Shown here piece after piece: positions 3,395 to 30,794 of a stretch of 64,000 nucleotides of DNA (position 1 is its first letter; the number at the start of each line of letters is the position of its first letter). The stretch is from Bordetella parapertussis. Its GTDB lineage: Bacteria; Pseudomonadota; Gammaproteobacteria; Burkholderiales; Burkholderiaceae_B. The stretch spans positions 1-64,000 of the forward strand of contig CAMBFI010000012.1 in assembly GCA_945865935.1 (NCBI GenBank). Reading direction: 5' to 3'. The translations under genes were made by a program, and so were the position numbers. The notes beneath the pieces were generated by a model. It had not been told where the DNA came from. It searched no databases and saw nothing but the letters and a program-made list of their open reading frames with translations.

Positions 3395-4206
3395 GAGGAC
3401 TGATTCAGTAGAAACTTACTCCTAACCATATACAAGCCGAGCAAAGTTAACGCTAAATTCCATTTAATTAAATAAAAGGGCTCTTCAAAGGTTTTAATCG
3501 AATCGCCGAAATATCCGTGCCTTAACATTTCGGTTCCGCTCAAGATAGGATTCCATATCAAAATGGCTTGAAGCTTCGCTGGCAACCAATCCAGCAGATA
3601 AAAGCTACCGGATAGAAAAAATAAAACAATACTGATCCCTATCCATATATAGCTGAGGTTTTGACTTTGAGAAATAATTGGGGCAATCGTCAGACTAAGT
3701 CCAAAAGCAAACCACATTGTTAACAACCACGCCGCGACCATGAGCTCATATGAAACTGGCGCAGGGATGATATTAAATGAGACAAAGCCAGATATCATAA
3801 GAATGAAGGATAAAGTTACACCCACCATTTCTAAAATATATCTAGTAAAAAAAAGGTCGAAAGGTTTGACATTTCTGTGCGTCAACAGACCGCGATTCGA
3901 TGAGATACCAGCAGCACACATCGTTGGCGTCCGTCTCCACAGATATGCAATATTGTAGCCTGTGATCAAAAAGGCTAATAAATCAACGCCAAAAAGCCGA
4001 TAGGTCTGAGCACCTGTGAACGATCTTATAAAAAATATAACTATCGTAATAATAAAAATTATAATGAGCGGCTCAAAGAGAACCCACAAAAAACCAATAT
4101 TCTTTCTTCCCCAACGGGTGATCATTTCTCTCAAAAGCAAGGCTTTGATCACCTCTCCCTGGATGCGGAAACCGTCTTTAACTTTTGGATCAATCATAAC
4201 GCTCAT
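3391..4206 (-). CDS. kpsM: Capsule polysaccharide ABC transporter permease (KpsM-like)
   Basis: A 271-residue ABC-2 type membrane protein. A short cytoplasmic N-terminus (EVIKALLLREMITRWG) is followed by about six hydrophobic segments, including GFLWVLFEPLIIIFII and ISIVLFFLSGSFYLLDWLP, the usual layout of KpsM/CtrC/BexB. It forms the inner-membrane channel energised by the overlapping KpsT-like ATPase. It starts 14 bp after the kpsE-like gene, so kpsE-kpsM-kpsT reads as one transcription unit on the minus strand. Confidence 0.92.
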   Translation of the reverse strand: MSVMIDPKVKDGFRIQGEVIKALLLREMITRWGRKNIGFLWVLFEPLIIIFIITIVIFFIRSFTGAQTYRLFGVDLLAFLITGYNIAYLWRRTPTMCAAGISSNRGLLTHRNVKPFDLFFTRYILEMVGVTLSFILMISGFVSFNIIPAPVSYELMVAAWLLTMWFAFGLSLTIAPIISQSQNLSYIWIGISIVLFFLSGSFYLLDWLPAKLQAILIWNPILSGTEMLRHGYFGDSIKTFEEPFYLIKWNLALTLLGLYMVRSKFLLNQSS

Positions 4207-4220
4207 TAAATTTATGAAAT

Positions 4221-5117
4221 TTAGTTAAAGTGATCTTTAGCGCCAGCAACTAATAACCTTACGATTAACCACATAATCAGAGAAATAGCGATTGTCGTGA
4301 GTATGTTAAATATCCGCTTTGGTAAAATCGGATAATCCGGCAAATTGGGTTGCACGACACGCTCAAGATATATTTTTTTCTTTTGGGCCTCGACCTTAGC
4401 ATCCTCAAGGGCATCAATCGCAGCACCTAGCTGTTTTTCAGCATTCGCACGTTCGTAAGTTAGGATTTGAAAGCGAGGTATAAAGTACTTACTATCGCTC
4501 GGCTTAGATTGGCTCCTAAACTCTGCAAGTGCAATATCAGCTTTTTCAAGATTACTCTTGGCTACCGTTATTTCGTATAAAGCATTTTTAATTGCATCTT
4601 GACGAAACTGCTCATTCAGTGTGTTGACCAAGGACTCACTGAGTTTAAGCAATTCTTCATTGATAAATTTCGCTTCCGCGGCTGTAAATGCATTAACGGA
4701 TAATGTAGATATCGATGTCAACGAGTCAATTTTCACGACTATGCGATCACGAAAATAGAGAAGTAAATTTTCATTGCTGTCGTTATATTTAAAAAAATCA
4801 AACCTACGAAGTGGATCAATCGTTGTGGAGCTGAAAATATCACGCAAATTAATTTTTTTGTTTAACTCATTCAACGCATCAGCTGAATTCATATAAGTTT
4901 CAATGATGCTACCGTAATCTACAGATTGAGACCCCATTGCTAATTTAGGAAACATCGCCGCCGGTGTATTTGCAGCCGACGAGGAGGAGCCAGCGCTGTG
5001 GGTGATATAAACAGAATTTGAAACGTATATATCCGAAGCAATCAGGCTGAAATACACGATGGATAAGCAAGAGGGCAAAAGGCATACAAACAAAAAAGTC
5101 TTACTTATTCGAAACAT
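4221..5117 (-). CDS. kpsE: Capsule export inner-membrane protein, polysaccharide co-polymerase (KpsE-like)
   Basis: This protein has an N-terminal membrane segment (FLFVCLLPSCLSIVYFSLI), a long, mostly helical periplasmic domain with coiled-coil character (about residues 160-255) and a C-terminal membrane segment (IFNILTTIAISLIMWLIVRLL). That is the two-helix topology of KpsE/CtrB/BexC, which link the ABC exporter to the outer-membrane channel. A proline-rich stretch (PNLPDYPILPKR) just before the second segment is typical. I prefer ATG 5117, preceded by GTGAG at suitable spacing; a GTG four codons upstream (5129) is the alternative. It is the first gene of the export operon. Confidence 0.85.
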   Translation of the reverse strand: MFRISKTFLFVCLLPSCLSIVYFSLIASDIYVSNSVYITHSAGSSSSAANTPAAMFPKLAMGSQSVDYGSIIETYMNSADALNELNKKINLRDIFSSTTIDPLRRFDFFKYNDSNENLLLYFRDRIVVKIDSLTSISTLSVNAFTAAEAKFINEELLKLSESLVNTLNEQFRQDAIKNALYEITVAKSNLEKADIALAEFRSQSKPSDSKYFIPRFQILTYERANAEKQLGAAIDALEDAKVEAQKKKIYLERVVQPNLPDYPILPKRIFNILTTIAISLIMWLIVRLLVAGAKDHFN

Positions 5118-5528
5118 GTGTAATCTCACAAAATAATTCTATTTAGTGCTGCAGACAGCTTTTGCCTAGCTAAAAATTAAGTTTCGCTGGCGTTGCCTGA
5201 CCAGTCAAAAGTATGCATAGCGGGCACTGTAGGAGCTTGGCGCAACTGGCAATCTTTACAGGCAAAGATACGTCTCCTATATCCGTTCCTTTTATGCACC
5301 TTTGTTAGGGTAGACGGAGCTTAACATGCTCGAGTTTCCTCGCCTAGCAGTGCTTAAAGGACGCTAGCGCCGACAGCCGGTTGAGCGATGCGTGTCGCCC
5401 ATGCGACCCATGTGATGTGATCTTGTTACCCCACTCATTTCTTGACAGAAACACCGGACTTCTGGTCGTATCACCTCTTTTATTGCCGAAACGTTGAGCG
5501 AAAAAGCACCTATAGAACTAGTCGCTAT
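5118..5528. other. Intergenic region without a recognisable gene
   Basis: About 410 bp between the kpsE-like gene and the methyltransferase/GT8 fusion. I see no ORF with protein-like composition and no clear terminator. A segment at about 5324-5367 resembles one at about 8151-8192, suggesting decayed copies of a shared sequence. The promoter of the kpsE-kpsM-kpsT operon should lie here, but no convincing -35/-10 pair stands out. Confidence 0.5.
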
Positions 5529-8240: not shown

Positions 8241-9485
8241 ATGCGTTTTACCGTTAAAAATTTACTGTCGGTGCCTTTAGTATTGCTCATGGCTTGGGTT
8301 TTACAAGGTTGCTCCGGCTTTTTTTCATCCTCTGGGGCAAGTCGAGCTCAAGTTGAGTCGGCAGCAGTACCGACCGAAACCAACTCTCCGATTTCTGTGG
8401 TGGCTGTTAATAATAGCGTCGCTCTGAAAGTGTTAAACGCCTACCGCTCTATAAAATTTAATGATGTGTTGCCCTCAGCAAAATCACGAGAAAATCTCGT
8501 CGGCGCCGGCGATAGCCTCGATATTTTAGTTTGGGAGGCCCCGCCAGCGATCTTATTTACCGCTAGCTCCTCCTACAGTGCCATGTTAACGAGTAACGCC
8601 CTGAGTAGTGCCGGCAAATCCTCTAATGTCAATACAAGCCCCGCGTCGTTAGGCATGCCAATGACCGCCCTGCCCCCTCAGGTGGTGAATAAACAAGGAA
8701 CGGTTGTATTCCCTTTTGTAGGCAGAATACAGGTGGCAGGCAAGACGCTTACCCAAATCGAAAAAGAGATCGTTGAAAAGCTGGCAGGCAAAGCTAACCA
8801 ACCACAGGTCATGGTCAGACTCGTGACGAACTATGCGTCAACCGTGACCGTTGTCGGAGAGGTCAATAGCAGTGTGCTAATGCCCTTGACACCCAAGGGC
8901 GAACGACTACTTGATGCGATTGCAATTGCCGGAGGTGTCAAAGCTCCCGTCAATAAAATGACCATTCAAGTCACCCGCAATGGTCAGACCAAATCACTAC
9001 CCATGGAAACGGTTATACAAGACCCACTACAAAACATCGCTCTGCTACCTGGGGACGTTGTCACCGCCTACTATCAACCGCTAAGCTTCACAGTACTCGG
9101 CGCAACCGGAAAAAACGACGAGGTGACCTTCGAAGCACAAGGCATCATGCTGTCACAGGCCTTGGCACGCGTTGGCGGCCTCAGCAACAGCCTGGCTGAC
9201 TCAAAAGGGATATTCATTTTTAGATACGAAGATCCCAAAACTCTTGACATCAAAGTCTCGAGCGCGCAAAGTCAATTTCCAAAAGATCAAGTGCCGGTCA
9301 TCTATCAGTTCGATATGAACGATCCAGGGACTTTCTTCGCTAGTCAGAACTTTCCGATGAAAAACAAGGACATGGTTTATGTTGCAACCGCATCATCTGT
9401 CGAATTGTTAAAGTTTCTAGCGATTATCAGCTCGGTGCTATCCCCAGCTGCTGCAATTAATAGCAGTGTGTTAAGCGGGTTATAA
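8241..9485 (+). CDS. Outer-membrane capsule export lipoprotein (Wza/BexD/CtrA-like)
   Basis: A 414-residue polysaccharide export protein. The signal peptide ends in a lipobox (WVLQGC, Cys24), so the mature protein should be a lipoprotein. A Poly_export domain begins near LVGAGDSLDILVWEAP (about residue 86) and includes QGTVVFPFVGRIQVAG. It is followed by SLBB-like segments beginning near VTVVGEV (about 213) and FTVLGATG (about 282). The C-terminal hydrophobic stretch LLKFLAIISSVLSP may be the outer-membrane helix. It should form the outer-membrane channel matching the KpsE/M/T proteins. At 414 residues with a lipobox it is closer to BexD/CtrA/Wza than to the longer KpsD. It is transcribed away from the kpsE operon. 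Confidence 0.88.
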   Translation: MRFTVKNLLSVPLVLLMAWVLQGCSGFFSSSGASRAQVESAAVPTETNSPISVVAVNNSVALKVLNAYRSIKFNDVLPSAKSRENLVGAGDSLDILVWEAPPAILFTASSSYSAMLTSNALSSAGKSSNVNTSPASLGMPMTALPPQVVNKQGTVVFPFVGRIQVAGKTLTQIEKEIVEKLAGKANQPQVMVRLVTNYASTVTVVGEVNSSVLMPLTPKGERLLDAIAIAGGVKAPVNKMTIQVTRNGQTKSLPMETVIQDPLQNIALLPGDVVTAYYQPLSFTVLGATGKNDEVTFEAQGIMLSQALARVGGLSNSLADSKGIFIFRYEDPKTLDIKVSSAQSQFPKDQVPVIYQFDMNDPGTFFASQNFPMKNKDMVYVATASSVELLKFLAIISSVLSPAAAINSSVLSGL

Positions 9486-10823: not shown

Positions 10824-10923
10824 ACACTCGGTACAAACATACTAATTATATAAAAGCAAGATCACACAGTTAACCTACCAAAAAAATAAAATTCACTCAT
10901 TGGCTGAATTAGGTATACAGACT

Positions 10924-17866: not shown

Positions 17867-20800
17867 GTGCCTAAAGCCGTTGCAATTCTGGGCAAGTCTT
17901 TCACCCTGCCATCCAGCTCCTCAGGTCACTTTGAACAAGACCTGCTTGATGGAAAAAATCTGATCTCTACTGTTGCCCCAGACCGTTGGTGTTTCGACAG
18001 TTTCTTACATTCAGAAAAATCTCACCCAGGCACTGCTTACTCATTTGATGCGGGCTCTGTGGGTGATGTCAGTCAATTTGATGCGACCTTTTTTGGGATT
18101 TCCCCTCGAGAAGCGGCACAGATTGACCCCCAACATAGGCTTTTGCTTGAAATGAGTTGGCTCGCCTTAGAGGATGCAGGCATCAAGCCTTCCTCGTTAA
18201 GAGGCTCGGCCTGTGGCGTTTACATCGGGATCTCGAGCGCAGACTACTCGTATCGTTTGGCCGAGGATATGGCCTCGATCGACTCCTCAGTTGCGACCGG
18301 AACGACAGCAAGCATTGCGGCAAATCGCATTTCCTATTTCTTTGATTTGCGCGGCCCAAGCATGGCGATCGACACAGCCTGCTCCTCGTCTTTGGTTGCG
18401 TTTCATCAGGCATGTCAAGCGATCCGCTCAGGTGAAATCACACATGCGTTAACTGGCGGAATTAGTCTGCATTTACACCCCTTGGGCTTTATCGTTTTTT
18501 CTAAAGCGAGTATGTTGTCCCCCAACGGGAACTGTAATGTGTTTGACGATGCCGGGAATGGCTATGTTAGGTCTGAAGGTGGAGGAGTCCTTGTCCTGAA
18601 GGACTACGACTTAGCCCTAGCAGATGGCGATCGTATCTTGGCTGTTGTCGCACAATCTGCCGTGAATACCGACGGTAAAAAAAATGGCCTGACCATACCC
18701 AAAACATTAACGCAAGCTGAATTACTAACCTCCGCATACTCAAGCGCAGGTATTGCACCAGACGCGATTTCGTATATCGAAGCCCATGGCACTGGGACTG
18801 CAGTGGGCGATCCGATAGAGGCCTTAGCGCTAGGCCAAGCGCTGGGGACGCAGCGCAGCTCTGATAAGCCTCTTTTAATTGGATCGGTAAAAAGCAATCT
18901 CGGGCATCTTGAAGCAGCATCAGGCATCGCGGGTTTAGCCAAGGCACTTTTTGTGATTGAACGACGTAAGATTCCTGCCACCATCGGCATCAAGACGTTC
19001 AATACGCGAATCGACTTCAAAGGCTTGAATCTTGATGTCGTCACTGAGACACGAGTATTGCCTAAGCATGAGCCTGTGGTGGTTGGCATAAATTCTTTTG
19101 GGTTTGGAGGTGCCAACGCACATGTGATTTTGCGTGATCACCCCGGGGCACTTGAGACGCCCAAGTCTTCAGAAACTCAGCACACAGTGCCGATTCCTCT
19201 TTTAATCTCTGCGGCTAGCCAATTAGCACTTCGCTCTGCAGCATCTAACCTGGCTCAAATCCTCTCACAGCATTCCTTGGAGGGGAAAGAGCACCAGCCA
19301 TATCTTTACGATACAGCCTACCAACTGGCGTTCCGACGCGAAGCGTTTGAACACCGAGCGATAGTATTCGCCAATATCGATCCCAAGGCCAACGATTACG
19401 ATATTGCCACGCTATGCAGCCACCTCCGTTCATTTGCGGACGACGCTCAAGGGGCCGCTGTAGTTTCGGGTGTGAAATTACTGTCGAGGACTGATCAATC
19501 TGGTACCAATTCTCGTACCCAGTATCCAGCTTTTTTTTACTCAGGCAATGGCTCGCAATGGTTAGGCATGGGTCGAGCCCTTCTTGCAGATCCAACCTTT
19601 AATCAGGCAATTAAAGAGATTGACCAGACGTTTATTCAACTTGCTGGATTTTGTATAGCAGATCAGTTGCAGGGCTTACTGCCTGAACTCAGTTACGAGA
19701 ATACGGATATCGCACAACCTGCTCTGTTTGCAGTACAGGTCGGTGTCACCAAAATGCTCGCGGCGATGGGTGTTAGACCGCAAGCTGTTACAGGGCACAG
19801 TGTTGGCGAAGTAGCCGCAGCGTGGGCCGCAGGTATATTGGATTTGAAAGCGGCAGTTGAGGTCATTTATCACCGCAGTCACTTACAGCAAACGACCAAA
19901 GGCCGTGGCAACATGTCGGCCGTGGCGATAGGCGTTGATACCGCAACACGCTGGCTTGCGGAAGAGCGTTTGTCAAAGGCAATCAGCATCGCAGGTATCA
20001 ACAGCGGCCGAGGTCTCACACTTGCTGGCGCGGAGCAAAGCCTAGCGAAGTTTGAAATACGCTTGACCAAAGAGCGCGTTGGCTTCAAAAGGCTCGCACT
20101 TGATTATGCCTTTCATAGCCCAGCAATGGATTCAATACAAACGGCAATCGAGGGGGCCTTAGGCCATCTCACTCCTAAGACGGGTGACATTGCTTTTTAC
20201 TCTTCGGTCACGGGAGGTTTGCTCGACGGCACTGCACTTACCGCTGAATATTGGTGGAAAAACATACGTCAACCGGTGCTGTTTGAAAGCGCCACCAATC
20301 AACTATTAAGCGCAGAGTTTCAAGTTCTCGTTGAAATCGGGCCACACCCTGTGCTTAAAGGCTACCTGAATGATTGTCTTGAACAGCAAGTGCAGCGTGC
20401 ACGGCCATCACTACCCGAACAACAATTTCAACCGGGTATTGGCGTAACTGGCAAGGGGACGGTATTAGCCTCGCTCAGCCGTCAGCAAGATCAAGTCGAG
20501 TCAGTGCAAGCGATCGCTGGACAGGTGTGGGTCGCGGGCGCAACGGTTGATTTGTCAGCGTTTTTCCCGGTCGTGGGTCAGCATGTCAGGCTGCCCACAT
20601 ACCCTTGGCAAAAAGAACGTCACTGGCATAGCGTGAGTGCAGAGTCACCCAACACCTTAAATCGTATTATCGAACACCCCTTGCTAGGCTATCGCGTACC
20701 TCAGCACCATCTACTTTGGGAAAACCAACTTGATCCCCATCGCCAGGCTTTTTTGGCTGACCACGTCGTGGGCGATGCGGTCGTGTTTCCAGGAACTGGG

Positions 20801-23800
20801 TATGTTGAACTTGCACTGGCCGCCGCGCACGCGTGGCGTGCAGAGGGTGTTAAACAGCTCGAAGACTTCGAGATTTTTTCACCACTCACGTTTGACTCTG
20901 GCCACGGAAAAGTACTGCGGGTGGGCATCGACGCAGCCGATGGCCGAGTATCGATTCAGTCTCGCGAGTTACTGAGCAGTCAAGACTGGATACTCAACGC
21001 CCGTGCTCGGATCATTTTAGACAGCCGATTTTTAGTCCATGCGACAGAGAACGCATTGCAACCGCAGTCACTCGAACAGTTAGCGCTACGTAGGCCAGAT
21101 TTTGATACGGCCTCGCATCTGCGACTAACCCGTATAGCCGGCCTGCAGTACGGCGAAGCCTTTGAGGCAATAAAATACGGCTGGTTAGGCAGAACATCAA
21201 CTGAGCCTGATACGTTAAATGATTGCGTCACTGCGCTGTTCAAGATTCCAGAGTCTCTTGTTGATTCAATTGGCAGTTTTCACATCCACCCTGCTCTGCT
21301 TGACTGTTCTTTTCAGCTAATTATTCAACTGCTGCGTGACAGAATAGATTTGAATGAGGGAATTGCGTTTGTCCCGACGCAAGCTAGACGGATCTCTCTT
21401 CAGTCTGGGCTGGGCGCGCCCCACCATGTCATGGCCCGGTTGCTGCGCACACTGCCAAGCTCTATCTTGGCTGAATTTACCTTGTTTGACGCAGAGGGGC
21501 ATGCGCTTGTGCGAATTGAGGGTGCGCGTTTTAAGCGAGTGCGTCTGCACACCGCCGGTGCCACCAAAGCCAATAATATCCATACTCGCTATATCCCGTC
21601 GCCTTTGCAGCCAGGTATGCGCCCCTCATCGGTGAGTTACCCGCTGATCGTTGAGTTAACCAATGAGGCTGCGCGTCTCAAGGTACTCGATCAGAATTAT
21701 CGTATCTATATCGATGAACTGGATCCGTTGCTCGATGCTCTGTGCAGTGCTTTTGCGGTCGAAACCTTAGCGCAGCTAGGCTTTAGCGAAAATACTGACC
21801 ACAACAGCATTCGCTTGCAACAACTCACTGAACAATCACCAGACACTGCGCCCCTTCTGCAGCACCTCATCAAGCTCGCGCTTGAAGAGGGTCAAATGAC
21901 TCAAGAGGCTGATGGGCTCAAGTTCAGACAAACTGAACTGCTCCTTAAGGATCAATCGAGTAACAACAAGATTGACGCGCTAAGTATCTGGAATACTCTC
22001 ATTGCTGACTATCCAGACTATTTTTGTGTGGTACATACGGTTGGAAAAGTCGGCAAACATCTCTCACGGATTGTGACAGGCGAAGAATCACTGATGCAGG
22101 TGCTGGGCACCGCGCAAGGTGTTGCAACACTGACAGACACATTAACCGGCAACCGGGTCAAAGGGCGACTCACCAAAGCGGTACGTGAAGCTGTCAAAGA
22201 CGCGCGTCAACGCCTGACGCCTAACAGTCGCCTTGGTTTTCTGGAGGTTGCTGCGGTGAAGCCTGCCCTGGCGTGTGAGCTCGGCTTGCATGAAGACGCG
22301 AGCCAATGTGATGTGATTTTTGCGTGTCCCGCCGTGACAGAGCTCGCAACAGGGCATGAGCTAGCTGAGGATTTTCCGAACCTGCAGCTCACTAGCTTCG
22401 CGCAGGCCACTCAGTCAGGGACTGCCGGCACAGCAGCTAAAGAGCCTCTCGTTGATCTAGCACTCGTTTGGTTGCAGTTCGACTCAGCAGCACTTAATGG
22501 ACAGGCAGTTGATTATGCAATAAGGCAATTAAAGCCAGGCGGCACACTACTCATTGAGGGGCAGCACCCTGCTCGCTGGCTCGACTTTGCATTTGGTGGA
22601 CGGGCTGATTGGTGGTCGGCGAGCAACGATAACAAAAAAATCTCGATGCAGCGCCCACGCTCGCAGTGGGAGTCACGGCTTGCAAGTCTTGGGCTCGAAA
22701 ATGTTCAACATATGAAAGTAACCCGCGAGGCAACGGGGGGGGACTTTCTATTAATTGCACACAGTCCACTCGCTGCCACTACACAGCCTCATCGCCATGA
22801 TTCACCGCGTAGCTGGTTGTTAATCACTGATCACACTGAGGCACACCAGCGGCTTGCGGATACGATCTGCGCGGGCTTGCAGCGCCAGGGAGATATGGCT
22901 TCAGTCCTGAGCCTGACGGCTGCATCAGACGAAGCGGCAGAGATCGCCCACCACATCGCCGCCATGCAAGCCGACTTCGGTCAACTCGATGGGATCATTC
23001 ATTTACAGGGGATGGGCGCAGCCTATCAGACGGGCACCCCCACTGCTGCGATCACTCGCTGCATCAGTGTTGCCAAGCTGATTCAAGCTTGCCAGCTCAC
23101 CGACACCAAGACGCCTGTATGGTTGATCACTCAGCGAGCGCTAATAGAAAGCCCCTCTGACCTAGGTAGCGCTGAAGTCGTTACCGAAAACCCCCTTAGC
23201 GCTGACGTAATGTTAGGGGGGTTTGTTCGCTCGCTTAATAATGAGGTCAATACCAATCGCCTACAACTGATTGAGTTAAATACCAACGTGATCAGTCAAC
23301 AGTTGATCGAAGAATTAATTCATGAACTCATCGTTGGCAGCCACGAAACAGAAGTGATTTTGAGCAACAATCAGGGGCGCTTTGTGCCACGTCTCAAGCT
23401 CGGCCATCGCGAATCCTTGATTAAGCGCTCTGTGTCTAGCGAGCAAGACACCTGCACACAGCTTAAGTTCAGCCAACCGGGTCAACTACGTAATCTGCAA
23501 TGGCAAGTAGTCAGGGGTCCGGCACCTAGCGACGATGAGGTTGAAATCGAGGTTGAAGCGACCGGTCTGAATTTTCGCGATGTCATGTATGCACAGGGCT
23601 TACTGTCTGATGAAGCGATAGAAAATGGTTTTGCTGGGCCAACGCTTGGGCTAGAGTGCTCCGGAAAGATCCTACGTTTGGGTAAGAGGGTCACCCATTT
23701 TGCAGTGGGTGACCGTGTGGTCGGCTTTGGACCTGCGTGCTTTGCTAATCGCGTGGTAACTAAGGCCTCAGCGGTTTCTCATATTCCCCGCAGTCTCTCC

Positions 23801-25774
23801 ACAGAAGCGGCGGTAACGATTCCGAGCGCCTTTTTAACGAGTTACTACGCACTAGTGCATATGGGACGTCTGGCGCCTGGTGAAAAAATTCTGATTCACG
23901 GTGCAGCGGGTGGGGTGGGTCTTGCAGCGATTCAGATTGCACGCCGCTGCGGTGCCGAGATTTTTGCCACAGCTGGATCAGATGAAAAGCGAGAACTGTT
24001 GCACATGCTAGGTGTCGAACATGTACTAGACTCTCGCTCCCTAAGCTTTTCCGAAGACATTATGACGATCACAAAGGGGGTCGGCATCGATATGGTACTG
24101 AACTCACTTGCGGGTGAAGCGATCAATCGTAATCTAAGCATTCTGAAACCTTTTGGCCGATTTTTAGAGCTAGGCAAACGTGATTTCTATGAAAACACAC
24201 GCATCGGTTTACGCCCCTTCAGAAATAACATTACTTATTTTGGTATCGACGCAGATCAGTTGATGAATGACCGTCCAGAACTGACCGCTAAACTATTTAG
24301 TGAGGTGATGGATCTATTTGATAAAGGGCTGTTGTATGCCCTCCCCTATACACGCTTTGAGGCAAGAGATGTGCTCGACGCATTTCGCTTTATGCAACGA
24401 TCAAAACAAATCGGCAAGATTGTTGTGACCTATCGTAACGGTATCCCTGCAAGCAACACACACATCTCAGCGTCTGCGCAATCTGTCTATAAAAAAGCCG
24501 CACATCTTAAGCTGGATCCGCTAGCGACCTATTTGGTAACAGGCGGGCTAGGTGGTTTTGGTTTAAGAAGCGCGCACTGGCTAGCAGAAAAAGGGGCTCG
24601 TCAACTTATCTTATTGGGTCGCCGCGGCCCAGACACCGTTGAAGCGCGTGCGGGTATCGAAGCGCTGACTAGCATGGGTGTCACGGTTTCAGCCCACGCC
24701 TGCGACATCACAGATGGGGCAGCACTTTCTAAGATCCTTGAGCCAAGCTTGCCTCGCTTAAAGGGAGTGATTCATGCCGCAGCGGTCATCGAAGACAGTT
24801 TGGTCGAGAACTTATCGCCAACGCAGCTTGAACGAGTGTTGAGCCCAAAGGTCGCTGGCGCAATGAATCTGCATCACCTAACGCAAAAACAAACTCTCGA
24901 TTTTTTTGTGATGTATTCGTCGGCTACCACGCTCTTTGGCAACCCAGGTCAGGCCGCCTATATCGCCGCCAACTGCGGGCTTGAAGCACTGGCAACGCAG
25001 CGGCGCGCGAAGGGCCTTGCCGCCACGTGTATGCTCTGGGGTGCGATTGATGATGCGGGTTTTCTAGCCCGCAACCAGCGGGTAAAAGAGGATTTGCAAC
25101 GCCGCATGGGTGGGCAAGCGCTATCCTCCGCCCACGCGCTTGAGCAACTGGAGGATGCGATTATCCACAACCGCACCAACGAAGGTGTGCTCAATTTAGA
25201 TTTCTCCGCGTTGTCAAAATTCTTACCGAGCGCGCAGTCGCCCCGATTCAGTGAGTTGGCACGGTTTAGCCTCAGCCACGAGCTAAACGATCAAAGCACT
25301 GAAGATATCTCGCAACTGCTCTCTACGCTTGATGATACAACCCTTGCAGTCCAATTTATCGAGATGGTAAAACAGGAGTTAGCTAAGATATTACGTATTG
25401 CATCCGAAAAAATTGATGCCAGTAAGTCAACCTACGACATGGGCTTAGATTCTTTGATGGGTGTTGAGCTCGTCGTGGCCCTTGAGGCACGGTTTGGCGT
25501 ACGTCTGTCGGTGATGGCGATTTCCGAAAACCCTAGCATAGAGAAGCTTGCATACCTTTTACTTGAGATCCTACGTGCTGAAGTGAATGCGCCTGTTCAA
25601 GCAGCGCACACCTTTACCCCTCAGTCGCCAAGCTCCGCAAATGCACACAGACACGTCGCTCATGTCACTGAATTAGTAAAACAACACGGGTCTGATTCAA
25701 GCGCCGAAGACATCACAGCTTTGGCAGAAAGTCTTGATACACAGATCCATCAGCCCGGAAGGTTTTTACAATGA
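17867..25774 (+). CDS. rkpA: Fully reducing type I polyketide synthase (RkpA-like)
   Basis: A 2,635-residue single-module synthase, GTG start. Domains in order: KS (about 1-425; Cys172 in DTACSSS, His307 in EAHGTGT, His347 in SNLGH); AT (about 550-860; Ser645 in GHSVGE, YAFH at 747-750, suggesting malonyl-CoA); DH (about 935-1225; His966 and Asp1146 in HPALLD); a degenerate methyltransferase-like stretch (about 1280-1630) without a SAM glycine loop; ER (about 1870-2190; HGAAGGVG); KR (about 2210-2400; TGGLGGFG, Ser2352, Tyr2365, Asn2369); ACP (about 2495-2570; Ser2529 in GLDSL). There is no thioesterase. It should build a saturated chain iteratively and keep it on the ACP. The 4-bp overlap with the oxoamine synthase and the capsule context match rhizobial RkpA. 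Confidence 0.93.
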   Translation: MPKAVAILGKSFTLPSSSSGHFEQDLLDGKNLISTVAPDRWCFDSFLHSEKSHPGTAYSFDAGSVGDVSQFDATFFGISPREAAQIDPQHRLLLEMSWLALEDAGIKPSSLRGSACGVYIGISSADYSYRLAEDMASIDSSVATGTTASIAANRISYFFDLRGPSMAIDTACSSSLVAFHQACQAIRSGEITHALTGGISLHLHPLGFIVFSKASMLSPNGNCNVFDDAGNGYVRSEGGGVLVLKDYDLALADGDRILAVVAQSAVNTDGKKNGLTIPKTLTQAELLTSAYSSAGIAPDAISYIEAHGTGTAVGDPIEALALGQALGTQRSSDKPLLIGSVKSNLGHLEAASGIAGLAKALFVIERRKIPATIGIKTFNTRIDFKGLNLDVVTETRVLPKHEPVVVGINSFGFGGANAHVILRDHPGALETPKSSETQHTVPIPLLISAASQLALRSAASNLAQILSQHSLEGKEHQPYLYDTAYQLAFRREAFEHRAIVFANIDPKANDYDIATLCSHLRSFADDAQGAAVVSGVKLLSRTDQSGTNSRTQYPAFFYSGNGSQWLGMGRALLADPTFNQAIKEIDQTFIQLAGFCIADQLQGLLPELSYENTDIAQPALFAVQVGVTKMLAAMGVRPQAVTGHSVGEVAAAWAAGILDLKAAVEVIYHRSHLQQTTKGRGNMSAVAIGVDTATRWLAEERLSKAISIAGINSGRGLTLAGAEQSLAKFEIRLTKERVGFKRLALDYAFHSPAMDSIQTAIEGALGHLTPKTGDIAFYSSVTGGLLDGTALTAEYWWKNIRQPVLFESATNQLLSAEFQVLVEIGPHPVLKGYLNDCLEQQVQRARPSLPEQQFQPGIGVTGKGTVLASLSRQQDQVESVQAIAGQVWVAGATVDLSAFFPVVGQHVRLPTYPWQKERHWHSVSAESPNTLNRIIEHPLLGYRVPQHHLLWENQLDPHRQAFLADHVVGDAVVFPGTGYVELALAAAHAWRAEGVKQLEDFEIFSPLTFDSGHGKVLRVGIDAADGRVSIQSRELLSSQDWILNARARIILDSRFLVHATENALQPQSLEQLALRRPDFDTASHLRLTRIAGLQYGEAFEAIKYGWLGRTSTEPDTLNDCVTALFKIPESLVDSIGSFHIHPALLDCSFQLIIQLLRDRIDLNEGIAFVPTQARRISLQSGLGAPHHVMARLLRTLPSSILAEFTLFDAEGHALVRIEGARFKRVRLHTAGATKANNIHTRYIPSPLQPGMRPSSVSYPLIVELTNEAARLKVLDQNYRIYIDELDPLLDALCSAFAVETLAQLGFSENTDHNSIRLQQLTEQSPDTAPLLQHLIKLALEEGQMTQEADGLKFRQTELLLKDQSSNNKIDALSIWNTLIADYPDYFCVVHTVGKVGKHLSRIVTGEESLMQVLGTAQGVATLTDTLTGNRVKGRLTKAVREAVKDARQRLTPNSRLGFLEVAAVKPALACELGLHEDASQCDVIFACPAVTELATGHELAEDFPNLQLTSFAQATQSGTAGTAAKEPLVDLALVWLQFDSAALNGQAVDYAIRQLKPGGTLLIEGQHPARWLDFAFGGRADWWSASNDNKKISMQRPRSQWESRLASLGLENVQHMKVTREATGGDFLLIAHSPLAATTQPHRHDSPRSWLLITDHTEAHQRLADTICAGLQRQGDMASVLSLTAASDEAAEIAHHIAAMQADFGQLDGIIHLQGMGAAYQTGTPTAAITRCISVAKLIQACQLTDTKTPVWLITQRALIESPSDLGSAEVVTENPLSADVMLGGFVRSLNNEVNTNRLQLIELNTNVISQQLIEELIHELIVGSHETEVILSNNQGRFVPRLKLGHRESLIKRSVSSEQDTCTQLKFSQPGQLRNLQWQVVRGPAPSDDEVEIEVEATGLNFRDVMYAQGLLSDEAIENGFAGPTLGLECSGKILRLGKRVTHFAVGDRVVGFGPACFANRVVTKASAVSHIPRSLSTEAAVTIPSAFLTSYYALVHMGRLAPGEKILIHGAAGGVGLAAIQIARRCGAEIFATAGSDEKRELLHMLGVEHVLDSRSLSFSEDIMTITKGVGIDMVLNSLAGEAINRNLSILKPFGRFLELGKRDFYENTRIGLRPFRNNITYFGIDADQLMNDRPELTAKLFSEVMDLFDKGLLYALPYTRFEARDVLDAFRFMQRSKQIGKIVVTYRNGIPASNTHISASAQSVYKKAAHLKLDPLATYLVTGGLGGFGLRSAHWLAEKGARQLILLGRRGPDTVEARAGIEALTSMGVTVSAHACDITDGAALSKILEPSLPRLKGVIHAAAVIEDSLVENLSPTQLERVLSPKVAGAMNLHHLTQKQTLDFFVMYSSATTLFGNPGQAAYIAANCGLEALATQRRAKGLAATCMLWGAIDDAGFLARNQRVKEDLQRRMGGQALSSAHALEQLEDAIIHNRTNEGVLNLDFSALSKFLPSAQSPRFSELARFSLSHELNDQSTEDISQLLSTLDDTTLAVQFIEMVKQELAKILRIASEKIDASKSTYDMGLDSLMGVELVVALEARFGVRLSVMAISENPSIEKLAYLLLEILRAEVNAPVQAAHTFTPQSPSSANAHRHVAHVTELVKQHGSDSSAEDITALAESLDTQIHQPGRFLQ

Positions 25775-27183
25775 CGCTGACTAAACGCGTGGTGTCGGGC
25801 CTCAGTGCACAGCTCAAAGACAAACTCATTCAACAGTCGCTTGAACGGCGGCTTAAACATGCTGACCTGACGGAGCCGTCAAAAGCGCAGAGACTCAAAG
25901 ATCAAGGCACCACTTCCGGTAGACTCGCCACCCACGCTGCGGCTGCGGTGGGTGATGACTATCAGACGTCCGCGGTTGCAAAAGCGTTTTATCGTTTTGA
26001 CCAGATGCCTGGTTATAAAAAAATCCAGATCATTCATAGCGGCGCGCAACGCATGGGGTTGACGAATCCCTTTTTTAAGCAACATGATGGTCTGGCAAAT
26101 GCACATACACAGATTGCCGGGCGAGACCTGATTAATTTTTCTAGCTATAACTATCTGAACCTATCGGGTGATGAGCGCATCAATGCTGCAGCAGTGGCTG
26201 CGATCAAAAAATACGGCACCTCTGTGTCGGCCAGTCGCCTAGTGTCTGGCGAAAGGCCTATCCATCGAGAACTCGAAGCAGCACTTGCAGCCCTATATGA
26301 AGCTGAGGCTGCAATTGTGTTCGTCAGTGGCCATGCAACCAACGTTACGACCATAGGTTATTTATTTGGACCACGTGATCTAGTAGTGCACGACGAATAC
26401 ATTCACAACAGCGCGTTGGAGGGCATCAAGTTATCGGGAGCCAAACGCTTTTCTTTTCCGCACAATGATTGGCAAGCATTAGATCAACTTTTGACGCAAC
26501 ATCGCACGCATTATGAAAGGGTGCTAGTGGTAATCGAAGGCATCTATAGCATGGACGGCGATTATCCAGAGTTACCTCGATTTGTTGAGGTTCGCAATCG
26601 TCACAAGGTGTTCCTGATGGTGGATGAGGCACATTCGTTAGGAGTGATGGGCACGCGCGGCCATGGGATCCGCGAGCATTTTGGTCTGCAAAGCGGAGAT
26701 GTGGATCTCTGGATGGGCACACTGAGTAAGACTCTAGCTGGCTGCGGAGGGTACATCGCCGGCGAATCTGCCTTAATCGAGCATTTAAAATTTCTAGCAC
26801 CGGGTTTTTTGTATAGCGTTGGGATGTCCCCGCCACTCGCTGCAGCTTCGCTTGCTGCATTGCAATGTCTAGCTGAGGAGCAACCTCGCGTGGCCGCTTT
26901 ACAAGAACGTGGCAAATATTTTTTACAGCTGGCACAAGCGGCGGGCGTAAATACTGGAACGAGTAGCGGTCTAGCCGTGGTGCCAGCCATTATTGGTAGC
27001 TCAATTCGTGCGACCCGGCTATCGAGCGCCCTGCTTGCGAGAGGGATCAACGTTCAGCCAATTTTGTACCCTGCCGTCCCAGAAAAATCAGCGCGTTTGA
27101 GATTTTTTATGTCTTGTCAGCATACCAAACATGAAATCGAACATACGGTTACCGCTCTGGTAGAAGAAATTGAAAACTTGTAA
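25771..27183 (+). CDS. rkpG: PLP-dependent alpha-oxoamine synthase (RkpG-like)
   Basis: A 470-residue fold-type I aminotransferase-like enzyme of the AONS / serine palmitoyltransferase / KBL family. The PLP lysine is Lys320 in GTLSKTLAG; Asp285 and His288 lie in VDEAHSLG, and VHDEYIHNS near residue 206 holds the cofactor-stacking His. Such enzymes condense an acyl thioester with an amino acid, losing CO2. An N-terminal extension of about 100 residues, absent from ordinary AONS proteins (about 390), may dock the PKS. Its ATG overlaps the rkpA stop (ATGA), so the two are translated together, and it probably releases the PKS chain as an amino ketone. The amino acid used cannot be told. Confidence 0.9.
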   Translation: MTLTKRVVSGLSAQLKDKLIQQSLERRLKHADLTEPSKAQRLKDQGTTSGRLATHAAAAVGDDYQTSAVAKAFYRFDQMPGYKKIQIIHSGAQRMGLTNPFFKQHDGLANAHTQIAGRDLINFSSYNYLNLSGDERINAAAVAAIKKYGTSVSASRLVSGERPIHRELEAALAALYEAEAAIVFVSGHATNVTTIGYLFGPRDLVVHDEYIHNSALEGIKLSGAKRFSFPHNDWQALDQLLTQHRTHYERVLVVIEGIYSMDGDYPELPRFVEVRNRHKVFLMVDEAHSLGVMGTRGHGIREHFGLQSGDVDLWMGTLSKTLAGCGGYIAGESALIEHLKFLAPGFLYSVGMSPPLAAASLAALQCLAEEQPRVAALQERGKYFLQLAQAAGVNTGTSSGLAVVPAIIGSSIRATRLSSALLARGINVQPILYPAVPEKSARLRFFMSCQHTKHEIEHTVTALVEEIENL

Positions 27184-27198
27184 CATCCGCAAGTTTTC
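27172..27198. terminator. Candidate bidirectional terminator overlapping the rkpG stop codon
   Basis: GAAAACTTG (27172-27180) and CAAGTTTTC (27190-27198) form a perfect nine-pair stem around a nine-base loop that contains the rkpG TAA. The stem ends in A/T-rich arms, so RNA from either strand would carry a U-rich 3' side. It sits exactly between the convergent rkpG and the facing operon. The stem is GC-poor, so termination may be weak. Confidence 0.55.
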
Positions 27199-27201
27199 TA
27201 T

Positions 27202-28773
27202 TTACTTTAATAACTCTGCGGCAAGCTGATGCACATGAATAGGTTGTAGCGGCGGTCTACGTTCTGGTACAAGCTCGCCGTCGGTCTTAAGATGATCCGA
27301 GCGCCAATAAAAATAATCAGTATTCCCGTCAGGTAAGCCATACTGTTCATACACCTTGGCTAACACCGGTACATGATCCCCATACCAAAGAAGTTGCGTT
27401 GGCGTAGGATCAGTCCCACTTGGCTTGGAAAGTCTACTCAGCAAGCGCAAAATCATCTGATCGGCATTGGCTAAATGCCTAAGGTATATCGCAAGTTCTA
27501 GACTGTTTTTTGGCAAAGGCTCGCTCAACCACTTTCGCTCTTCCATCTCTGTGATGTGCTCAAGATGTAAGGGCCCATGATTTTCCATCGTAATGGCAAA
27601 TATAAATAGCGGCTGCTCATGCCTCCTTGTCAACGTCTCAAGGATTTTGTCGGTTAGCGCTTGATCGCTCACATACGGCCCTTGCCTTGGATCCTGCTGT
27701 TGCAAGGGTTGAGCAAAGCTTTCTAAATCAATAAATTCATCAACACCAAGTAAAGCAAAAATTTTATCGCGCTGATAAAAACTTTTTGGATAAGGGTGAA
27801 TACAAACTGTTCGGTACCCTCTTTTTTTAAACTCGCGCGCAATCGACGGTAACTCAGACGACACTAGACGACGGTAGGGGTTGAACTGATCGATCCCCAA
27901 CTGAGTTGAGTCGATACCGGTTAAAAAAGAAAACTCTGTTCGCACGGTGTTCGCTCCCCAAGCCGGCACTTTGAGGGTTCCAAAGCTCACTGACGCACGG
28001 CACGCTTGATCAAAGCTAGATAGGACGCTCGGTTTGATCAGGCTAAACGCACGCCTTGGATCAAAAAACGATTCACTTTGCACGACAATCGTGTCGTACC
28101 TTTTTCGTACGTCGCTTGCGAAAGAAACCGAGCTCAGAGTCGAATGCTTGATAAGGTCAGCTAAGGTAGTCGCGTTGCGCTCTGCCCACGCGTAGTGCCA
28201 ACATAGCGCGACGAGTCCTCTCTGTTTGAAGTCATCGTTTGGTTGAAATCTTAAAGTTATTTCGTACTGATGCCCAACAAAAAGTACGGCTATTGCAAAG
28301 AGAAAAACAACCAACCCGGCCAGCTTGACTTCTTGAAGGGGTACAGACTGCGATAACGCATATTCGAGCGACAGGCCGATCCATAGCGCTAACCCGACAG
28401 CAGCAAGGCAAACAACGATTTTCAGTAACCCAAAAAATGGCAGGTATAGCCTCGGGTGCTTGAGGGTATCGACAAAATAATCAAAGTCTTGATAAATAAA
28501 GGGCTCACGCAACGCGTTAAACTTTGCGTGATTGATTAAGACGAGTACGTAAAAAATCGTGTTGGTCAGACACACGGCCAGCCAAGGCCTACCGAACTGA
28601 ATAAACTCAAACAAATACAGCAACAGCCAAGACGCACTGTGAATCATAAAATCTGCAGGGCTACGTTGCCAGGGTGGCCGAGGGCGCGGCAGATGGACTT
28701 GCTCCAGCACAAAAGACAATGCGAGCCCGATCAACAGCGGGGCCATCAGCGCTTTCAGTGCGTCAATTGGCAC
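27202..28773 (-). CDS. Membrane-bound LtaS/MdoB-like (sulfatase-fold) protein of the rkp module
   Basis: 523 residues with about five membrane segments in the first 180, then an extracytoplasmic sulfatase-fold domain. YDTIVVQSESFF (Glu234) and the candidate nucleophile Thr275 in WGANTVRTEFSFLTG correspond to the metal and Thr sites of LtaS/MdoB/OpgB phosphoglycerol or phosphoethanolamine transferases; AITMENHGPLH and WYGDHVPVL (Asp466, His467) complete the site. A phospho-headgroup transfer to the lipid or glycan is plausible but inferred. The start is GTG 28773 and overlaps the dehydrogenase gene by 11 bp. It takes the place expected for RkpI, a membrane protein of the rhizobial set; I cannot confirm homology. 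Confidence 0.75.
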   Translation of the reverse strand: MPIDALKALMAPLLIGLALSFVLEQVHLPRPRPPWQRSPADFMIHSASWLLLYLFEFIQFGRPWLAVCLTNTIFYVLVLINHAKFNALREPFIYQDFDYFVDTLKHPRLYLPFFGLLKIVVCLAAVGLALWIGLSLEYALSQSVPLQEVKLAGLVVFLFAIAVLFVGHQYEITLRFQPNDDFKQRGLVALCWHYAWAERNATTLADLIKHSTLSSVSFASDVRKRYDTIVVQSESFFDPRRAFSLIKPSVLSSFDQACRASVSFGTLKVPAWGANTVRTEFSFLTGIDSTQLGIDQFNPYRRLVSSELPSIAREFKKRGYRTVCIHPYPKSFYQRDKIFALLGVDEFIDLESFAQPLQQQDPRQGPYVSDQALTDKILETLTRRHEQPLFIFAITMENHGPLHLEHITEMEERKWLSEPLPKNSLELAIYLRHLANADQMILRLLSRLSKPSGTDPTPTQLLWYGDHVPVLAKVYEQYGLPDGNTDYFYWRSDHLKTDGELVPERRPPLQPIHVHQLAAELLK

Positions 28774-29539
28774 GGTACCCCAGTAGGCTAAGGATTTTGA
28801 CCGATACGCTTGGAGGCAATACCGCTAAAAACCAACAGCCAATATTTAACGGAAACGGAAAAGAAATGCGCGCGTGATGCAGTGCGAGGCGTCGCTTAAT
28901 GAGCTTGGCGGCCCGCTCGGGCGTCCAGAGAAAAGGCTTGGGTCCAGGCATAGCTCGGCACATCGCTGAATCCACATAACCCGGCATCACAACGGCCACG
29001 TGAACACCATAGGGCGCTAGCCAACCATGTAAGGCCTCGCCATAGGCTTTCACGCCCGCTTTGCTGGCGCTATAAGCGGGCGTAACTGGCAAGCCAAAAA
29101 AACCTGCGAGCGAACTCATCAGTGCAATCTGACCATGACCGCGCGCCTTCATCGCGCGCGCTGCCACGTGCGCCAACGCCATGGTTGCACGCAGGTTTAC
29201 ATCCAAAAGTCGCTCTGTGTCCGCCCACTCTTCGCCCGCGCCGTCTGGCCCAATATTAATGTTCACGCCCTGATTCACAATCAAGAGATCCAGGGGATAC
29301 TGGTCGTCAATATCCTGCGCCCACGCCTGCACTTGAGGAGTATCGGTCAAATCAAACAGCCCGAGCACCACCATCGCACCCTTCTGCTCACAATCGTCAG
29401 CCACCGCAGAGAGTGTGTTTTCGTCACGACCGTGCAAAATCAGCCTGACGTCGGGTGCGGCATAAGCACGCGCAAGTGCCGCGCCGATACTCCCAGACGC
29501 ACCTGTAATCATCACTGTCCGCAAAGTTCGTTGATTCAT
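28763..29539 (-). CDS. rkpH: Short-chain dehydrogenase/reductase (RkpH-like)
   Basis: 258 residues. TGASGSIGAALARAY is the NAD(P)-binding loop, VNQGVN replaces the usual NAG, and MSSLAG with YSASKAGVKAYGE supplies catalytic Ser, Tyr and Lys. The C-terminal tail (about 225-258) is hydrophobic and may bind the membrane, as in 3-ketosphinganine reductases. In this module it most likely reduces the 3-keto group of the oxoamine synthase product to an amino alcohol. The gene is 4 bp downstream of the KpsS-like gene and overlaps the next one, so the three are one operon. Confidence 0.82.
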   Translation of the reverse strand: MNQRTLRTVMITGASGSIGAALARAYAAPDVRLILHGRDENTLSAVADDCEQKGAMVVLGLFDLTDTPQVQAWAQDIDDQYPLDLLIVNQGVNINIGPDGAGEEWADTERLLDVNLRATMALAHVAARAMKARGHGQIALMSSLAGFFGLPVTPAYSASKAGVKAYGEALHGWLAPYGVHVAVVMPGYVDSAMCRAMPGPKPFLWTPERAAKLIKRRLALHHARISFPFPLNIGCWFLAVLPPSVSVKILSLLGYRAN

Positions 29540-29543
29540 AGGC

Positions 29544-30794
29544 TCATATTGAAATCTGCTGCATCAGACACTCTAAGGGGGACTGCTCCGCAACCAATAT
29601 CTTAGCGCTGGCATTTGCGGCAAGCTCGATCCCCCGCGGGCAATAAAACCCGCCGTTTACCTGTGTGGTGCTTATGACCACAGCTTTGAATAGCGCAAAG
29701 AGTTCAGGCTCAGGCTTAGGTAGTTGTTGCCAAAACGCATCGAGCGCGCACTGTGCCGTTAAGCCTTGAAAATCATATATGGCGGGCGCCAAACAGAGTG
29801 TGGGGCAACCATGCTCAAGAGCCACGTTGCCCACAGTACTGTTTAAAGTGATCGTACCCAAAGCATTTTTCAACAAAGCGGCAAGATCGCCTGTTTCAAA
29901 GTACTCGATCCGCCCCGATACGCCATACCGACTAGCAAGCTGTTCGCTTAACAGTTGATAATTAACTTGATCAAAATCAAGGGGATGATTTTTGATGGCT
30001 AGACGCGTATTCGCAGGCGCATACTGAGAAAAAGAGTCGATGACGCGTTCAAGCACCGCTTGCATGGTGTTCAATTCGGGTTGATCCCGTACTTGAAAGT
30101 CACTATTGAGCTGCAACGGCAAAAAATAGAAACCTCCAGATCGCTTCAAAAGATCGTGAAGCCTTAAGCGTTCTTGGTGTGCATGAAATTTATTTTTAAC
30201 ATTACGTACAACAAACCCAGAGTATTCGACCGGCGCAAGCACAGCAGCATGTGTATGGTATCGAGGAAAGACCAGCGGATTTAGCCCAGAGGCCAAATGG
30301 TAGGCTACGTCGTGAGCCGCACGTCGCCAAAAAGGCGACTGAAAAGTGCTGAGCTCGGTCTGTCCCACCTGCGACGCTAACAGCTTGTGGCCGGCAGCCC
30401 GAAGCCACGTCACGTCACGCGGTAGTTGTGAACGACTATTCACCCCTTCGCGCTCAAGTGTCACCAAGTATGGTCGAAAATACCCTTCTTCAAAGACATG
30501 ATTACGGACTCCATGCCTGCGGGCTGTATGCACGGCGTGACGATGCACAGGTCGTCGGTCACCAAACAGTACTTGATCGGTAATACCTTCGCTCAGATAC
30601 ATTTGCTCAAGATACCCTGCAAGCTCTGACTCCATCTGCCGAAACCAGACAGACTGATCAGGCGCCCAGTACGCCACGTCACCCATGTTGAAACTGATCT
30701 TTGTGACACGATGCCCGGCAGCACGTAATCGTTTTGCAAGGCGCTTAAAAAATGGCGAACTCACACCCTGCAAAAATAGAAAATGTCGTTTCAC
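29544..30794 (-). CDS. rkpJ: KpsS-like capsule polysaccharide transferase (RkpJ-like)
   Basis: 416 residues of the Capsule_synth family. FLFLQGVSSPFFKRLAKRL at the N-terminus, VLFGDRRPVHRHAV near residue 97 and FEEGYFRPYLVTLE near 121 are KpsS/LipB-type motifs; RLAIKNHPLDF and LNSTVGNVALEHGCP near the C-terminus fit the CMP-Kdo side. In E. coli KpsS adds the first beta-Kdo to lyso-phosphatidylglycerol. Here, next to lipid-building genes, the acceptor may be the polyketide-derived lipid. It is the first gene of the minus-strand rkp operon. KpsC, its usual partner, is not in the window. Confidence 0.85.
   Translation of the reverse strand: MKRHFLFLQGVSSPFFKRLAKRLRAAGHRVTKISFNMGDVAYWAPDQSVWFRQMESELAGYLEQMYLSEGITDQVLFGDRRPVHRHAVHTARRHGVRNHVFEEGYFRPYLVTLEREGVNSRSQLPRDVTWLRAAGHKLLASQVGQTELSTFQSPFWRRAAHDVAYHLASGLNPLVFPRYHTHAAVLAPVEYSGFVVRNVKNKFHAHQERLRLHDLLKRSGGFYFLPLQLNSDFQVRDQPELNTMQAVLERVIDSFSQYAPANTRLAIKNHPLDFDQVNYQLLSEQLASRYGVSGRIEYFETGDLAALLKNALGTITLNSTVGNVALEHGCPTLCLAPAIYDFQGLTAQCALDAFWQQLPKPEPELFALFKAVVISTTQVNGGFYCPRGIELAANASAKILVAEQSPLECLMQQISI

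Follow-up and report, generated by a model that had tools for sequence, protein, structure and literature searches.

Which lipid carries the polysaccharide when a capsule locus brings its own polyketide synthase? The question is raised by a stretch of 64,000 nucleotides from Bordetella parapertussis (assembly GCA_945865935.1, contig CAMBFI010000012.1, positions 1 to 64,000), here called the window, in which genes for a polyketide synthase (PKS), an alpha-oxoamine synthase (AOS), a membrane phosphoglycerol transferase (PGT), a short-chain dehydrogenase/reductase (SDR) and a KpsS-like Kdo transferase form a module accompanied by Kps-type genes for capsule export. E. coli builds its group 2 capsules on lyso-phosphatidylglycerol as acceptor (PMC10148158; this and the other papers are cited for the passages available). 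We see about an even chance that the five genes form an rkp-1/wcb-type lipid pathway dedicated to the capsule, working by the steps proposed below. The argument is built on the observed gene content, catalytic residues, conservation, co-occurrence and pattern of KpsS subtypes. New here are the finding that AOS follows capsules, the identification of glycerol-phosphate transferases as the nearest solved structures to PGT, the way in which KpsS subtypes are distributed, and the distinction between an SDR that goes with AOS and a PGT that goes with KpsS.

A five-gene module of the rkp-1/wcb kind

The PKS (17867..25774, forward strand, an open reading frame (ORF) of 2635 aa, RkpA/WcbR-like) is of the fully reducing type I, with the Pfam domain order KS-AT-DH-ER-KR-ACP, and overlaps by 4 bp the ORF of the RkpG/WcbT-like AOS (25771..27183, forward strand, 470 aa, PF00155). 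Facing them on the reverse strand are the PGT (27202..28773), a GacH/LtaS-type and RkpI/WcbQ-like protein recognised by PF00884, profile search and conserved residues, the RkpH/WcbP-like SDR (28763..29539, adh_short) and the RkpJ/WcbO-like KpsS-like transferase (29544..30794), assigned by PF05159 and tree placement. The PKS has a single ACP near its C-terminus, and neither a thioesterase nor a methyltransferase domain was found in it by the Pfam scan; it probably acts iteratively. A sequence-only reading of the window had described this arrangement, with a PKS without thioesterase running into AOS and an SDR, a membrane protein and a KpsS-like protein facing them, and the ORFs and Pfam matches confirm it.

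Relatives of AOS were collected by a profile scan of GTDB genomes, which confirmed at least 551; the best 80 were kept and, as top-scoring rows only, are biased to close kin. Among the 70 long-PKS loci of this set, the distance between PKS and AOS is no more than 60 bp in 62, and the exact 4-bp overlap occurs in 16. The KS cysteine, AT serine and KR motifs are present in 70/70 PKS, that of the window included, and the ACP motif in 69/70. Patterns used for other motifs matched fewer PKS (DH 20/70, ER 2/70, second KS motif 56/70), and the DH match in the window PKS is in the wrong place; because these patterns fit poorly, the DH, ER and second KS motif rest on Pfam. The order PKS and AOS on one strand, then PGT, SDR and KpsS facing them, is found again in other genera and families, so the module is not a product of chance.

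In Sinorhizobium the same five families make up the rkp-1 region (rkpA, G, H, I, J), with KpsF and an export protein as neighbours. The genes of S. meliloti Ak57 run KpsF, KpsS-like protein, PGT, SDR, AOS, PKS and export protein, and local identity to the window proteins is 52% for AOS, 34% for PKS (1274 positions), 33% for the KpsS-like protein and 27% each for PGT and SDR. The Ak57 PGT lies outside the gene table of the record and was found as an ORF, with GacH as its best PDB match. The rkp-1 region of S. meliloti differs from the module in that all five genes run in one direction, the sequences are divergent and the KpsS-like protein falls in another subclade. The shared families and local identities bear out the kinship with rkp genes proposed in the sequence-only reading, and judged by its proteins the module belongs to the rkp-1/wcb kind. 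The Burkholderia and Cobetia wcb genes (wcbO, P, Q, R, T), known here by description, are equated with rkp in the literature, where the two clusters are called orthologous (PMC3908369). One Burkholderia and one Caballeronia genome studied here have PKS, AOS, SDR and KpsS without PGT.

The lipid genes of rkp-1 and wcb were described in the 1990s. According to reviews, Sinorhizobium mutants show that rkp-1 is needed for capsule production (PMC4881576, PMC8227245), and the region is described as needed for capsule and lipid carrier (PMC4881576, PMC3557214). The rkpA gene apparently produces a lipophilic molecule, maybe a carrier or anchor, which rkpGHIJ apparently modify and transport (PMC3557214), and in Cobetia wcbPQRT are assigned to biosynthesis of a lipid carrier, "probably fatty acids", with WcbQ annotated as lipoteichoic acid (LTA) synthase (PMC11766843). 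The idea of a lipid anchor is thus not new, since carrier and anchor are already in print (PMC3557214, PMC4881576). The available passages (PMC3557214, PMC4881576, PMC11766843) still describe the product no more closely than as a "lipophilic molecule" or a "lipid carrier", and no sphingoid or oxoamine product of rkp or wcb genes appears in the titles and abstract openings found, subscription papers being mostly outside this search. The pathway proposed here predicts a specific molecule and assigns each gene a role distinct from those of the others.

AOS follows capsule genes

Evenly sampled Pseudomonadota genomes, 398 with that of the window among them, were scored with cut-offs of our choice (AOS 1e-130, PGT 1e-40, PF05159 1e-15) on up to four AOS and three PGT candidates per genome. 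AOS occurs in 18 genomes, PGT in 23 and PF05159, the KpsC/S family, in 63. AOS coincides with PF05159 in 15 genomes and with PGT in 12, and PGT with PF05159 in 15 (Fisher p of 1e-10, 8e-13 and 4e-8, respectively; the genomes are related, and p is indicative only). PF05159 is missing from three AOS genomes: G122, in which KpsT- and KpsE-like genes adjoin one AOS copy, G278 (71 percent complete) and G428. The best 80 AOS loci are mostly from Bordetella, Achromobacter, Pseudomonas, Methylococcales and Accumulibacter, and include metagenome-assembled genomes (MAGs) named Desulfopila, Trichlorobacter, Syntrophobacteraceae and Acidobacteriaceae. Genome-wide checks of 50 genomes from these 80 found PGT (>300 bits) in 42 and PF05159 in 47. 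Half of the six PF05159-less AOS genomes (G122, G069 and G105) keep Kps-type export genes near PKS-AOS or PGT. Among 31 other genomes of the window's genus, AOS is present in 7 and PGT in 11, including all 7 with AOS.

PKS-AOS release is used outside capsules too. Plasmids of Streptomyces anthocyanicus (L213, 8317-13140) and Planktothrix agardhii (L214, 5602-13200) carry PKS-AOS fusions whose AOS parts are 53 and 52% identical, respectively, and no capsule exporter is among the listed genes within 12 kb of either fusion. The capsule linkage read from the window alone is upheld for the 15 of 18 genomes in which AOS accompanies KpsC/S-family genes, and is limited by fusions with no exporter in view. 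A wide spread of PKS and AOS without capsule genes was looked for in part: only 3/18 and 3/50 AOS genomes are without the KpsC/S family. The Streptomyces fusion has an MMPL transporter and an LCP protein in its vicinity; the Planktothrix one adjoins glycosyltransferases.

KpsS subtypes

A separate KpsS subtype is what a different acceptor predicts. The window KpsS-like protein reaches 251 bits with the NCBIfam KpsS equivalog NF050054, below the cut-off of 600; this model is weak as a test because 10 other KpsS-like proteins, 6 of them from genomes without AOS or PGT, also fail. Its score was rejected as a marker of acceptor type, as it gave no separation. We compared KpsS proteins in a tree of 57, which took 16 of the 45 genomes that have PF05159 with neither AOS nor PGT. 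One branch (support 99/84) splits these 16 from the 41 of genomes with AOS and/or PGT, with a single label change (0/500 shuffles as low), and the window protein groups apart from the KpsS of module-less genomes. This split is not plain taxonomy, since the module-less genomes G192 and G434, of the window's order, group with ordinary KpsS. The existence of a KpsS subtype of its own in AOS and/or PGT genomes fits the claim, made from the window, that KpsS acts there on a different acceptor. The likeness to E. coli group 2 initiation extends to the KpsS and KpsC families and to KpsMTED export; the differences are the extra lipid genes and a module KpsS clade separate from module-less KpsS (E. coli KpsS being outside the tree).

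Within the module side, the KpsS of genomes with AOS and no PGT form one clade, drawn from three Bordetella, one Burkholderia, one Caballeronia, one Rhodoferax, a Methylococcaceae MAG and three genomes of another class. For 44 matched genomes, AOS genomes without KpsS being left out, the KpsS tree needs one PGT-label change (support 100/98, and so in all 200 bootstrap trees) and the AOS tree six, or four without three long rows, at least three of them on supported branches. These counts indicate that KpsS type shifts when PGT comes or goes on a similar AOS background. Adjacency alone does not explain this pattern: in Bordetella hinzii KpsS adjoins PKS-AOS-kdsA-KpsC, PGT lies about 16 kb along the contig, and KpsS is still of the PGT type. 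For these comparisons a 300-residue N-terminal extension of the L030 KpsS ORF was trimmed, and antisense ORFs in high-GC loci were set aside as artefacts. The phosphate-binding arginines of KpsM, considered as a clue to an anchor phosphate, gave a mixed picture, and the model found no KpsM in five loci from module-less genomes.

The phosphoglycerol transferase

Searched against the PDB, a PGT profile of 28 sequences matched GacH (E 1e-34) and the LTA primase LtaP (5e-20), then LTA synthases, the uncharacterised VP1736 and, weakly, sulfatases; no phosphoethanolamine transferase was matched at E<0.01 among solved structures. By sequence, the nearest solved relatives of PGT are glycerol-phosphate transferases, and GacH adds glycerol phosphate to a streptococcal carbohydrate. 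Residues E234, T276, H326, R335, H399, D466 and H467 are invariant in the 28 sequences and align with GacH and LtaP; we take them to be the catalytic threonine, the metal ligands and the substrate-binding histidine and arginine. All seven are kept in the alignment with S. meliloti RkpI, including two sites that motif patterns had missed. PGT thus resembles GacH, LtaS and LtaP in its catalytic set and best profile match; unlike LtaS, it stays far below the cut-off of the NCBIfam LtaS model NF053595 (29 of 970 bits). For the genomes with AOS and no PGT, ten neighbour proteins were scanned as possible substitutes and set aside, eight being glycosyltransferase, nucleotide-sugar or SDR genes and two having no Pfam match. 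An RkpI-type PGT, sought with S. meliloti RkpI as query, gave no match in 9/11 of these genomes and weak ones, with E near 1e-4, in the other two.

The lipid synthase and its reductase

In both single-sequence and profile searches the best PDB match of AOS is serine palmitoyltransferase (SPT; 3a2b/8guh), and its Lys320, presumably the pyridoxal phosphate lysine, is invariant in an alignment of 38. By these comparisons AOS forms a separate family, at most SPT-like. It probably releases the PKS chain by condensation with an amino acid, for which serine is weakly favoured by the structural matches. In fungi, fumonisin is released by the PKS, AOS and reductase Fum1/Fum8/Fum13, with alanine as the amino acid. 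The window has this layout, with a reducing PKS without thioesterase coupled to AOS and a separate ketoreductase, and release followed by ketone reduction would work alike; unlike the fumonisin system, compared here by layout, the module has a capsule context, a GacH-like PGT and a KpsS partner.

The SDR is generic by family. At 1e-50 it was found in 9/9 genomes with both AOS and PGT, in 7/11 with AOS and no PGT (all but G107, G109, G370 and G373), in 0/3 with neither and in 1/3 with PGT and no AOS, where it lies about 1 megabase from KpsS. Because the presence of SDR follows AOS and not PGT, the reductase belongs with AOS, as reduction of a 3-ketone predicts, and SDR probably reduces the 3-keto group.

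Proposed pathway

We propose that the PKS would build a saturated acyl chain on its ACP, which AOS would release by decarboxylative condensation with an amino acid, most likely serine, to give a 3-keto-sphinganine-like amino ketone. SDR would reduce this ketone to a 2-amino-3-hydroxy long-chain base, and PGT could then move sn-glycerol-1-phosphate from phosphatidylglycerol to the lipid alcohol, yielding a single-chain look-alike of lyso-phosphatidylglycerol. A KpsS matched to this look-alike would add the first Kdo and KpsC would extend it; serotype glycosyltransferases, here perhaps with sulfotransferases, would build the polymer for export by KpsMTED. What each enzyme takes and makes, whether PGT acts before KpsS, and any flipping of the lipid between leaflets are inferred in this scheme.

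The sphingoid-like anchor suggested by the sequence-only reading is strengthened by the rkp kinship, the capsule linkage and the KpsS subtype; that such a module makes some special lipid, as carrier or anchor, had already been published. Its further statement that this lipid replaces lyso-phosphatidylglycerol as acceptor is unsupported in that form, as PGT suggests that the glycerol-phosphate head is rebuilt on a new lipid. A wider view is that Pseudomonadota have a second widespread class of ABC-transporter capsules, anchored on a polyketide-derived sphingoid phosphoglycerol (a free-amine mimic of lyso-phosphatidylglycerol) with co-evolved KpsS subtypes, one matched to the phosphoglycerol form in genomes with PGT, the other to the bare long-chain base in genomes lacking it. 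This we hold only tentatively, and would sooner doubt than assert it. If true, a sizeable share of capsules (AOS occurs in 15/63 KpsC/S-bearing genomes of the phylum sample) would have a non-textbook lipid end, which would bear on capsule export and on capsule-targeting inhibitors based on the lyso-phosphatidylglycerol model.

Weighing the alternatives

Several observations speak against the proposed pathway. The profile search separates SPT (276 bits) from KBL (267 bits) by 9 bits, and AOS falls below the cut-offs of the SPT models (NF047600, 288 of 640 bits; NF047599, 261 of 500; NF047603, 186 of 670) and passes none among all NCBIfam families matched. The homologues of PGT point to an outside location that its charge pattern opposes, the hydropathy profile giving about five membrane segments before the domain. 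LtaS-type active sites are extracytoplasmic and KpsS works in the cytoplasm; since the homologues of PGT act outside and KpsS inside, the PGT product would need to be flipped back. PGT is also found without AOS, adjoining KpsS in two genomes and about 1.6 kb off in one. As to KpsS, the branch between module and ordinary proteins has only 92/62 support in the S. meliloti tree, with 6 of the 16 ordinary rows, and S. meliloti RkpJ is the one exception to the PGT rule, grouping with the PGT-less clade in a genome that does have RkpI. The joint pattern of PGT and KpsS may be linkage in part, because the two genes are often adjacent. When PGT was set against KpsS type in a sign test over the AOS tree, with the type taken from the KpsS tree itself, there were three supported independent pairs, all one way (p 0.25); with so few pairs the argument rests on the change counts.

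The absence of PGT from 8 of the 50 AOS genomes counts on the same side and would suit the main rival explanation, in which PKS, AOS and SDR make the anchor and PGT acts in the periplasm to attach glycerol phosphate to the repeat of the polysaccharide, in the manner of GacH. GacH is also the closest solved structure, and a periplasmic active site would fit such decoration. In Cobetia marina, whose locus has wcbPQRT, the capsule repeat contains Man-6-phosphoglycerol, and its authors state, citing GacH work, that WcbQ can transfer glycerol onto the chain (PMC11766843). Against this, the capsule of S. meliloti 1021 is a Kdo homopolymer (PMC5539429), while RkpI of strain Ak57 has GacH as best match and the full catalytic set. 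The wcb capsule of B. pseudomallei is a 6-deoxy-manno-heptan without glycerol phosphate (PMC5507470), PGT presence there being outside our comparison. That KpsS subtype follows PGT would likewise be unexpected for a polymer decorator, unless by linkage, and we consider this explanation unlikely, though it is the strongest of the three rivals.

The two others we rate as quite improbable, and at nearly the same level. In the slightly better placed one, the completed capsule rests on ordinary lyso-phosphatidylglycerol, and the lipid is a mere carrier while the polymer is made or exported, or else a distinct metabolite that is secreted or stays in the membrane. PKS-AOS units outside capsule loci are in its favour; the tie of the module to capsule genes and the separate KpsS subtype in module genomes are not. 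A 2005 paper by Fraysse, known from its title only and counted here for the carrier, is said to describe a "phospholipid anchor" in the S. meliloti 1021 capsule. If that anchor is an ordinary diacyl phospholipid, it would contradict the pathway proposed here; a sphingoid phosphoglycerol would likewise analyse as a phospholipid. Passages of reviews use the wording "lipid carrier" (PMC4881576, PMC3557214), which agrees with a carrier role. The last explanation has AOS use glycine or alanine to give a 1-deoxy, fumonisin-like amino-alcohol anchor, with KpsS or PGT acting on the 3-hydroxyl or another position. BioF and KBL family scores of AOS that equal or exceed its SPT-model scores, KBL close behind SPT in the profile search and the use of alanine in fumonisin release all point that way, and the top PDB match to SPT in both searches points to serine.

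Natural variants of the module

PGT and KpsS can move together independently of the lipid synthase. In L176 (10509-13342) and L177 (9302-12288) they lie beside kpsM and kpsE genes, with a KpsF-like gene in L176; no PKS, AOS or SDR is in view in these loci, and the genomes have no AOS at 1e-80 and no SDR at 1e-50. Conversely, G069 (L218) and G105 (L217) combine AOS, SDR and PGT with a Kps-type exporter in genomes without PF05159. Their order is SDR-PGT-KpsD-KpsT-KpsE, then a large protein, which in L217 has 883 aa and no Pfam match and is followed by wecB/wecC-type genes. On plasmid p2 of Caballeronia insecticola (L216) the order is SDR-PGT-PKS-LpxC paralogue-AOS, then KpsD, M, T and E, and it is the same in G430 (L159); the LpxC paralogue is at 13033-13959 in L216 and 13442-14380 in L159. 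No KpsS or KpsC was found in the 29 kb examined of L216, though a Kps-type exporter is there, and this variant perhaps uses a different sugar start. The variants suggest that PKS, AOS and SDR are a lipid unit, that PGT is a head-group unit mostly alongside it, and that KpsS/KpsC is one of several ways to start the sugar on the lipid unit.

A plasmid typed as mobilizable in Pseudomonas sp. TMW 2.1634 (L215, NZ_CP016850.1) carries the module complete, along with kdsA, kdsB, kpsF and a pair of KpsC-like genes. In eight Pseudomonas loci (L045, L055, L064, L070, L074, L078, L082 and L094) a GNAT acetyltransferase stands between PGT and a KpsC-like gene, and in L045 and L064 a PhyH dioxygenase gene is near AOS. 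These enzymes might tailor a lipid bearing an amine and hydroxyls.

Capsule context in the window

To the left of the module lie, on the reverse strand, a KpsT-like ABC transporter ATPase (2720..3394, PF00005), a KpsM-like membrane subunit (3391..4206, PF01061) and a KpsE-like inner-membrane co-polymerase (4221..5129), the last recognised by homology to genes beside kpsM/kpsT in relatives and having no Pfam match. A KpsD/Wza-type outer-membrane export protein (8241..9485, Poly_export and SLBB) is on the forward strand. KpsC, identified by PF05159 matches, is found close to one end of a different contig from this genome (G000:C1, 3106-4851), beside two genes read from sequence as rmlA and rmlC, and the capsule locus is probably split by the assembly. 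The left 18 kb of the window has a G+C of 34-47% per 2-kb window, versus 48-54% in the module, and holds several glycosyltransferase genes. Sulfotransferase-family genes are also present in this low-GC part of the capsule locus (10900-11568 and 16058-16906). By analogy with Cobetia marina, where wcb genes are likewise part of the locus, the capsule of the window may be sulfated.

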